Positions 23,506-32,498 of a stretch of DNA of 64,000 nucleotides are shown one piece after another. The stretch lies in NCBI RefSeq assembly GCF_000189635.1, contig NW_002476278.1, positions 62,001 to 126,000 of the forward strand, given 5' to 3'. Origin of the DNA: Tetrahymena thermophila SB210. Taxonomy: Eukaryota > Ciliophora > Oligohymenophorea > Hymenostomatida > Tetrahymenidae. Made by a program: the position numbers and the translations under genes. Numbering within the stretch: position 1 is the first letter of the stretch; each line of letters begins with the position of its first letter. The notes under the pieces were generated by a model, which was not told where the DNA came from, searched no databases, and saw nothing but the letters and a program-made list of their open reading frames with translations.

Positions 23506-24134
23506 ATCAAATATATATTTTTTTTATTTTTTTTAATTATAAAGGATTTGTTTTTAAAAAAGTCAGATATTAAAACAGTATCTAGCTGTATACATTATAT
23601 AGTCATTTTATAATTTTACTTATATTATATATAGGATAAGAAGATTGTATTTAAAATTCAATTCAATAAAAAACTAAAATCCATCAAAATAAAATTTTTG
23701 TTTTTACGTAACAAAAACTTAAAAATAAATTTTAATTTTTATAAATACCATGTTTTAAATTACAAAAAGGATTTCAATTAAGCTTAAAGAATATTAATTT
23801 TTTATCATTATAAGAATTTTAATTTTTTCTAATTTCAAAAAAATTTCCCTATTTTAAATTCAAATCTATTACATTCACAGTAGAAACTATTACATTTTTT
23901 TAACTGTTTAAAATAAGTAGAATAATCACTTATTTATTTATAAATAAGATCACTTAAATGATTTAATTTTCATTTCTAAAAATGATTAATTTGTATAATT
24001 TACTTTTAATCATGAAAGTAATGACATTAAAAAAAGTAATTTAAATTATCGTTCAAAAAATTAATTGATTGATTGTTAAAAAACAAATAAATAAATCAAA
24101 TTTCGAATTTAGTTTAAAACTTATTTTTAAAATA
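23506..24134. other. Divergent intergenic region
   Basis: Separates the minus-strand gene starting at 23505 from the kinase starting at 24135, so it should contain both promoters. It is AT-rich with poly-T and poly-A runs. No distinct motif recognised. Confidence 0.55.
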
Positions 24135-27230
<3,096 letters not shown>

Positions 27231-29770: not shown

Positions 29771-32498
29771 TCAATTACTATTTTTATAAGGATATTAAAC
29801 TAAATGTTAGTTTCCATAGCTATCCTAATTACTACTATGTGTATTATGATTATGAATATGAGAATGGCTTAAGTTGTTATTACTGTTAACTGAAGTGGCT
29901 ATATGATTATTATTATTTTATCCCCTATTGTTTGGTGTATTGCTTCCAGTACAAAGGTTTTTATAAACTTCAGACAATATTTTTTTAGAGCTTCCATTTT
30001 CCTCTCTTTCCATTTCATCGAAAGCACAGTGTAATTATTAAAGGGCTAAAGTTAAATATTCATGGTTTTGAGAGTTTTTTGAATAACTTATATATTATTC
30101 AAACACTTTATCTAATGCTCCTTTAAAATATATATTATTTTTGCTCATTCCTGTTAAATTTTACAAATATTTTTAATAGCAAAATAAAAAAAATTAGTAA
30201 TTCAATCAATAAAATCTTGAATTAAAATAAATTCTGAAAAATAAAATATTATTTTTTCAAAATCTCTAATTTAAATTTTTTTTTATTTGTCAAAAAAGAC
30301 AAAAAAAATAAATCTGAAAATTTAAAATTAAAACTAAGAGAAAACGTTTTCTCAAATTTTTAAGTTTGATTTATATTTTCTTTGCTATTTCTATCTATTT
30401 TTGCTTAAATCCATATATTTTCAATCAGATTAAAATTAATATTTAAACTTTTTTGATATATAAAAGAAAGAAAAATTTATTATTAAAACATGATTTACCT
30501 TCAAGAATTTTTCTTTTTTCTTGTTCGTTTGTACATTTATTCATTTTTTATATATAATGATTGCTTGGATGATCTGTGTTGCAACTTTATTCTTAAGAAG
30601 AATCACTATCAGTTTGCAAATAATTCATTATATTATCAGAATCGGAGTGCTATTAAGTGATATTCTAATTTGATCCCTTGTTAAAAAATGTTGATTGTGT
30701 AGGTTAGTTGCTTTGCTTATTACTTTAAACTTATTTTTTTTTCTCTTTATCTTGTTTATGTTTATCTCCTCTGTATATATCAATTACAATTTAATCCATA
30801 TTTTTACATTTATCATCTATTGGATTGTTACCACTATTTAAGTAGTTAGAGAACTCTTTTAAATCTTTTTATTCTTCTAAACGTTACTCCATAGTTATTT
30901 GCTTCATAGTACTTTATATTAATAATTCAGAGTCTGCAGTTTTTCCTCCTTGAGGTTTATTGTTTGGAATTAAAATAGCAGATCCAGTAACCATTGAATT
31001 TGCTCTTATCTATTAGTTTGGAGCTCCAGGCTTAAACAAAAAATTTCCTCTTTTTCTATAATTTTAGTTTGAAATAATAGTTATATTCTTAAATTTAAAA
31101 TATAAATGATTAATTTTACAAATCAATGTCAAAAAGATCAATTAAATAAGAAGGCTTTTTGGCTAACTTAATAAAACTGTGACTTAATAATTATTTTGCA
31201 GATTATCTTTATTCTGGATTGTATTTCAAACAGCAATTTACAAAATTTATCAGCATTCTAATTTGAAAAGTTTTTCAAAATTATTTAAATTTTTTTAGAT
31301 GCTTTTTTAAATATTTTACGTAGAAGAGGTCTCTTTTGAAAGTGAAGGTGGCTCTTCAGAAACTATTCTACTCATAGCAATTTCAGGTTTCTTATCATAA
31401 TATGGAGGGTGGCCTGTTGCCATTTCTATTGCAGTTATCCCTTGGAAATAAAAAAATAGTTTTTTTACCACACACCAAAAAAATTTGATTAATTTATTTA
31501 CCTACAGACCATATATCTGCTTTGAAGTCATATTCTGATTTTTAAATAACCTCAGGAGCCATATAGTAAGGAGTTCCAACAAATGTTTATAGTTTTTAAC
31601 TGTTGTTTGTTATTTTAGATGATACTCCAAAATCACAAAGTTTAACTTTTCCATCTTTTTGAATCAATATATTTGCTGATTTAATATCTCTATGAACCAT
31701 TTAATTGCTATGTAAATAACTTAATGCTTGTAGTATTTCTTTTAAAATAATAGTTATATAGGGTTCTTAAAATTATCCTTTCTTTTTTATCTATTAAAAA
31801 TAAAAATACAAATTGATTTAAATTGATTTTTAAGTTCTATTATATATTACTAATTAAGCTAAAGATCCTCCGCCACAATACTCCATGATTATATATATTT
31901 TATTGTCTAAATTGTAAATTATAAGATTTTAAATATTTTATTTAAATTTGTAAAATAAACATTTATGCTGAATAATATAAATGTTTATTAAAAATTCAAT
32001 TATAGAAGACAAAGTAATACCCACAAAAAAATGCTCATAAACTTAAGTAATGTTTGGATGGTTGCACTCTTTAACTAAATCTATTTCCTTTTTAACAAAA
32101 TCATCTACTTTTTCGTTTTCCTATTTTATATTATTAACTTTTAAATCATATTTATCGATAGCTATTTTAATAAATATAATGATTTATAACTAACTAGATT
32201 CAAATATATTTAGCTGTAAATTAAATTACCTGCACTTCAATCACTTTGATCGCAACTATCATATTATTTTCTTTATTAAGCCTAGAGTGTTTAATTTAAA
32301 AATGGTATATAACTTTATAAATAAATAGATCTAATATTCTAAATAAATAAATATTTATAATCTTATATTACGCTCTATAAATTTCAGCATAAGATCCTTT
32401 TCCTATTACTTCATAAAAGACATATTTATCCTATTTAATTATAATATTTATGTTGATCTTTAGCTATTTGAGTAGAAAATGATTTTTTGATTTACCAT
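29771..32498 (-). CDS. GCK-III class STE20 kinase (STK24/25/MST4-like)
   Basis: 584 residues from a ten-plus exon model that sums to exactly 585 codons. Kinase signatures in order: [90 protein letters not shown]. After a Ser/Gln-rich linker a 348-nt intron (30151-30498) joins a last exon encoding ALDKVFEQYISYS, then [20 protein letters not shown] and ILSEVYKNL. This follows the C-terminal pattern of GCK-III kinases that binds CCM3/PDCD10. Introns: 32431-32495, 32282-32371, 32121-32229, 31907-32020, 31791-31850, 31441-31501, 31258-31319, 31056-31119, 30151-30498. The 5' end is uncertain: in this model exon 1 is just ATG (32496-32498). Alternatively a slightly later acceptor would add about a dozen residues, or the true start lies further upstream. 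Confidence 0.82.
30338..30353. repeat. Perfect 16-bp palindrome in a large intron
   Basis: GAGAAAACGTTTTCTC reads identically on both strands. It lies in the 348-nt last intron of the GCK-III kinase gene, the longest intron identified in the window. It could be chance or a site for a dimeric protein. Confidence 0.6.

Follow-up and report, generated by a model that had tools for sequence, protein, structure and literature searches.

An isolated 125-residue frame of Tetrahymena thermophila as the very probable last coding exon of a GCK-III-type kinase with an altered C-terminal pairing domain

In the window analyzed here, a stretch of 64,000 nucleotides of the Tetrahymena thermophila SB210 genome, an open frame of 125 residues on the minus strand very probably represents the last coding exon (exon 10) of a GCK-III-type ciliate kinase, with a tail akin to the dimerisation domains of STK25, MST4 and CCM3. 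We estimate the probability of this reading at about 0.92. The assignment is based on the open frame and its splice signals, on coding scores and on the relation of the tail, by sequence, to these domains. In the transcripts, a 348-nt intron would be spliced out, and the kinase domain with its linker would in this way be joined to the C-terminal pairing domain. That the frame is the last exon of the kinase had been proposed in a sequence-only reading of this DNA, and the proposal is upheld by the best of ten splice pairs, by the coding score and by the presence of a GCK-III-type tail in a Ste20 kinase.

The gene model of the Ste20-family kinase comprises ten exons on the minus strand (window 32498-29771) and, with the ciliate code, encodes 584 residues followed by a TGA, that is, 585 codons. 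Its frame is open only when TAA and TAG are read as glutamine, and the TGA stop ends at 29771. One frame is kept across the nine GT-AG introns of the model, which measure 65, 90, 109, 114, 60, 61, 62, 64 and 348 nt (introns 1 to 9); the G+C content of the window is 17-27%. A spliced total of 585 codons had been anticipated and is exact in the rebuilt coding sequence, which by itself is no evidence. The coding part of exon 1, the least certain exon of the model, is probably the start codon alone (32496..32498, minus strand); it was placed there because without the splice there is no in-frame ATG. A 65-nt intron lies directly after this start codon (start codon and intron together, window 32431-32498, minus strand).

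The predicted exons 2 to 8 (31120..32430, minus strand) encode the protein kinase domain (Pfam Pkinase, 6.9e-78, residues 4-256). They are located at 32430-32372, 32281-32230 and 32120-32021 (exons 2, 3 and 4), and at 31906-31851, 31790-31502, 31440-31320 and 31257-31120 (exons 5, 6, 7 and 8). The GKGS of the glycine loop and the GTPYYMAPE motif are both present in the protein. Exon 9 (30499..31055, minus strand), which is also favored by its coding score, encodes the linker between the kinase domain and the tail and has GAA G at its 3' end. It is followed by intron 9 (GTAAATCA...TTTAACAG, 348 nt, 30151..30498, minus strand), modeled from splice and coding scores, and by exon 10 (29771..30150, minus strand), which would encode the C-terminal tail, residues 459-584, and the stop.

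For the junction between exons 9 and 10, we confirmed on the minus strand that the frame beginning at the ATG at 30148 reads 125 residues from MSK, and that the donor claimed at 30498 (GTAAATCA) and the AG acceptor ending at 30151 are both present, giving the joined codons GAA G/GA ATG in frame. The search covered donors between a point 60 nt inside exon 9 and the TGA met by read-through, and acceptors up to 30133. In this range ten GT-AG pairs keep the frame from exon 9 to exon 10, and the pair 30498/30151 ranks first with a splice score of 10.7 bits, the runner-up reaching 6.4 bits; for the donor at 30498, the acceptor at 30151 is the sole usable one in the range searched. It should be noted that these scores were trained on just eight introns, all of them from the kinase gene itself, and that the acceptor of intron 9 (TTTAACAG), with 2.5 bits, is the weakest of the nine (4.6-8.7 bits in the other eight introns). 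The G+C of intron 9 (0.141) lies within the range of introns 1 to 8 (0.109-0.197).

With 348 nt, intron 9 is three times as long as any other intron in the gene. We did not hold this length against it, since the mean intron supported by RNA-seq in T. thermophila has been given as 135 bp (PMC3274533) and a class of introns longer than 70 bp is recognised (PMC5014332). The addition of a tail to the gene model fits the known state of the T. thermophila gene models, given that only 48.3% of the splice sites from RNA-seq were reported as exact matches to the 2008 annotation (PMC3274533). As a separate observation, the 348 nt of intron 9 are divisible by three and include an in-frame TGA, so retention of the intron would yield a tail-less kinase of 482 residues. 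A tail-less form produced through retention could be considered as a side option; in Sordaria, the optional intron 4 of SmKIN24 is described as being retained to give a C-terminally truncated protein (PMC4587736).

For the coding signal, codon usage was taken from 27 long frames in other parts of the window, and the base composition of introns 1 to 8 served as background. Exon 10 scored 0.28 bits per codon in its own frame, the two alternative frames reaching 0.04 and -0.07, and exon 9 scored 0.44 versus 0.08 and -0.15. Intron 9 was negative in all frames, a result to which the choice of background contributes: with the composition of introns 1 to 8 as reference, introns tend to score around zero or lower. 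The score is weak for short exons: another frame scores higher in exon 2, and another frame ties in exon 5.

With respect to the tail, the reference pairing domains were those of STK25, MST4 and CCM3, three partly related sequences whose letters were confirmed in PDB chains. A putative helix 1 (30092..30130, minus strand) can be aligned with STK25, MST4 and the CCM3 N-terminus, and it is followed by a conserved block of 31 residues (residues 494-524; 29954..30046, minus strand). The ungapped 31-column score of this block against the three references is 30.3, and the maximum of the null, 266,557 windows taken from other open frames, is 21.7. The value was likewise attained by 0 of 20,000 shuffles and by none of 182 segments of 300 residues. 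The block is also the top-scoring window of the whole kinase protein, the next one reaching 3.0. The null came from open frames with a minimum length of 100 codons, taken in six frames from the window and further loci, including many kinase genes and some non-coding frames; the block was picked once the alignment was known, and the same columns were applied to all null windows.

Within the block, STK25, MST4 and CCM3 have ten hydrophobic columns in common, and the tail is hydrophobic in nine of them; of the seven columns identical in all three references, three are altered. One of these three is the proline of the ExxxPG motif: E506 and G511 are kept, and N510 occupies the proline position, so that the tail reads ExxxNG. 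In the MAFFT alignment helix 1 is also in register, and F, A, L, E and G are invariant in all four sequences. Taken together, the alignments support the interpretation of the tail as a recognisable but altered form of the GCK-III pairing domain. The C-terminal residues indicated in the sequence-only reading are found in the tail at other spacings, and the pattern as quoted there does not match the frame literally.

Searches with other tools gave more modest results. In local alignments, the tail scored 42 against CCM3, as an ungapped block (4 of 2,000 shuffles as good), 37 against STK25 (10 of 2,000) and 20 against MST4, which is the level of chance (686 of 2,000). A profile HMM built from the three sequences placed the tail frame fourth among 4,603 frames (6.3 bits, E 2.9; 4 of 5,000 shuffles higher), a weaker result than that of the ungapped block. 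No Pfam domain was recognised in the tail, which says little, since the STK25 tail also falls below the Pfam cut-off (18.9 versus 19.8 bits). The comparison of the tail with the PDB sequences yielded only two matches, both to unrelated proteins and neither of them significant (E 0.12 and 5.9); against the whole genome it matched itself alone, with no close paralogue, and against plasmid DNA there was no match. To look for stray ciliate DNA, the tail was also run against viral contigs, in which nine stretches fitted a pattern, none of them being a relative.

We considered three other explanations, whose probabilities overlap in part with that of the exon assignment because one of them, discussed below, is compatible with it. 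The frame could be a separate small gene starting at the ATG at 30148, with the kinase ending at the TGA within the intron after 482 residues. The frame does have its own ATG and its own stop, and reading past the donor at 30498 reaches a TGA after 24 codons (the TGA starts at 30427). However, these 24 codons score -0.28 bits per codon and the 19 that precede the ATG score -0.17, so both flanks look non-coding, and the ATG lies almost directly after the splice acceptor (AACAG/GAATG). Furthermore, the relatives of the frame are C-terminal tails of the very type of kinase that is encoded just upstream, and the gap between the two genes would be of 276 bases only (30424-30149). We rejected this candidate on the non-coding flanks and the adjoining acceptor, and consider it highly improbable. 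A different objection accepts the exon as part of the kinase and attributes its likeness to GCK-III and CCM3 to a chance pair of amphipathic helices. This would agree with the absence of a Pfam match in the tail, with the weak three-sequence HMM, with the lack of excess over shuffles against MST4 alone and with the use of only three, partly related, reference sequences. It is at odds with the block score, unmatched in all null windows and shuffles, and with the position of the domain within the protein and the alignment of helix 1, which also fit the pairing domain. A chance likeness was therefore rejected on the null windows, and it seems to us very improbable.

The remaining explanation concerns the type of kinase, which could be MST1/2 (Hippo) instead of GCK-III. 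When the whole protein was compared with the PDB sequences, STK25 chains scored 250.1-253.7 bits, STK24 248.9-251.5 and MST4 243.5-246.9, followed by MST1/2 with 226.6-230.9 and also by SLK, PAK and MAP4K, all among the best 60 of 2,793 matches; judged from sequence, the kinase domain is nearest to STK25/STK24/MST4 among solved structures within those best 60. Direct alignment of the kinase domain gave 47% identity and a raw score of 622 with STK25 versus 45% and 568 with MST2. At 104 positions the residue common to STK25 and STK24 is not the one found in MST2; of these, the window kinase has the GCK-III residue at 27 and the MST2 residue at 20. In a search of the genome (101 Mb, 445 contigs), the exon at 31497-31787 matched STK25 at 58%, the top identity among the matches listed and the tenth by E-value, and it was absent among the matches listed for MST2 at an equal cut-off. 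The MST1/2 alternative gains from the phylogenies, since a five-row kinase-domain tree grouped the protein with STK24/25 at 87/87, below the threshold for firm support, with alternative groupings not rejected (p-AU 0.09 and 0.24), and an eight-row tree did not settle its placement between GCK-III and MST1/2. It also gains from a short extension of the C-lobe, found in this gene alone by a motif search of 51 loci and the window, which scores 31 bits with MST2 and 25-28 bits with GCK-III; this extension is not usable as proof of GCK-III, because MST2 scores slightly higher. The kinase domain as a whole, however, favors GCK-III in the PDB and direct-alignment scores, and the tail fits GCK-III and has no SARAH match in Pfam (its pairwise score against the MST2 SARAH letters is 23). 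Moreover, a neighbouring kinase is a better candidate for MST1/2. Overall, the kinase domain appears to lean to GCK-III with support that is not firm, so the tail must carry the rest of the assignment; an MST1/2 identity strikes us as quite unlikely.

This neighbour is a second germinal-centre kinase, on the plus strand (window 24111-27227), with kinase exons at about 24276-24731 and 24830-25189 and a leaning to MST2. At about 26448-26549 it contains a SARAH-like stretch that scores 59 against the letters of the MST2 SARAH (0 of 1,000 shuffles as good) and has no match in Pfam. In Tetrahymena, the Hippo kinase CdaI has been described as an MST1/2 homologue (PMC6813674). If the tail of the neighbour is real, two kinases leaning to different GCK subfamilies would lie a few kilobases apart, each one with its own type of tail.

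Another aspect to consider is the partner of the tail. According to a review, the pairing of CCM3 is driven by the hydrophobic residues L44, A47, I66 and L67, mutations that abolish CCM3 dimerisation also inhibit the binding of GCK-III kinases, and these kinases are activated by homodimerisation under the control of CCM3 (PMC6663315). The window tail has the same residues at the positions of L44 and A47, V in place of I66 and Y in place of L67. The tail would fold as helices and would pair with its own second copy or with another protein of similar fold. Such pairing would gather copies of the kinase or position them in a complex and, judging from GCK-III kinases generally, would most likely favor trans-autophosphorylation. 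It may in this way govern both trans-autophosphorylation and which substrates, for example NDR-type kinases, can be reached; NDR kinases can be activated by GckIII kinases, according to a review (PMC7096357).

The sequence-only reading had suggested a search for a CCM3 homologue, and none was found in the genome by six-frame searches, of doubtful sensitivity, with PDCD10_N, PDC10_C or human PDCD10. As a control, Mob1 was found by the family search, but a like search did not find Mo25, and it also misses the SARAH-like stretch of the neighbouring kinase, which Pfam fails to recognise too. Because of these misses nothing is concluded about an absence of CCM3. Binding of CCM3 by this tail is not supported by these results, and for the tail CCM3, a second copy of itself or another protein would be equally possible partners. 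GCK-III kinases without CCM3 have precedent. A rather doubtful extension of this idea is that the GCK-III tail predates CCM3: the ciliate tail would then work without CCM3, pairing with itself or with another protein, and CCM3 would have arisen afterwards as a copy of such a tail lacking the kinase.

Ciliates represent another major branch of eukaryotes. A ciliate member would extend the GCK-III subfamily to that branch and would agree with the view of this subfamily as ancient (PMC4237420). Among the titles and abstracts listed for the open-licence literature on GCK-III, Hippo, the Ste20 kinome and STRIPAK in ciliates or Tetrahymena, we found none on such a kinase, and a review of 2020 considered it worth learning whether ciliates possess STRIPAK complexes (PMC7096357). 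The model with the restored tail offers a handle on this question, since the product ending at the intron TGA would be devoid of the part that, by analogy, docks the kinase. The outcome is a useful annotation, a gene model of a GCK-III-type kinase that deviates from the reported motif at one position (ExxxNG).

A conserved motif at the C-terminus has been described for GCK-III kinases of animals, yeast, slime mould and plants (PMC4237420). The window kinase shares with human STK25, STK24 and MST4 a kinase domain of Ste20 type at the N-terminus (47% identical to that of STK25 over 259 residues), a linker and a C-terminal pairing domain, the last in equal register with STK25 and MST4. It differs from STK25 and MST4 in a loop between helix 1 and helix 2 that is three residues longer, and from all three in having ExxxNG where they have ExxxPG and in the 60 residues, with an Asn/His/Ser-rich stretch, added after the domain at the end of the protein (window 29774-29953, minus strand). 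The identity of the tail is weak, 22% to STK25 and 12% to MST4. The N-terminal dimerisation domain of CCM3/PDCD10 (Pfam PDCD10_N) shares with it the ungapped block mentioned above, and its four named pairing residues are kept or swapped for another hydrophobic residue in the window tail; however, the domain is N-terminal in CCM3, before the FAT-H domain (PMC6663315), whereas here it is a kinase tail, which the PDCD10_N model does not recognise. Yeast Sps1 and the plant GCK-III kinases, compared here through their published description, are likewise divergent and are recognised by the kinase domain together with the conserved C-terminal motif; in them ExxxPG is reported as invariant (PMC4237420), whereas the window kinase lacks the proline.
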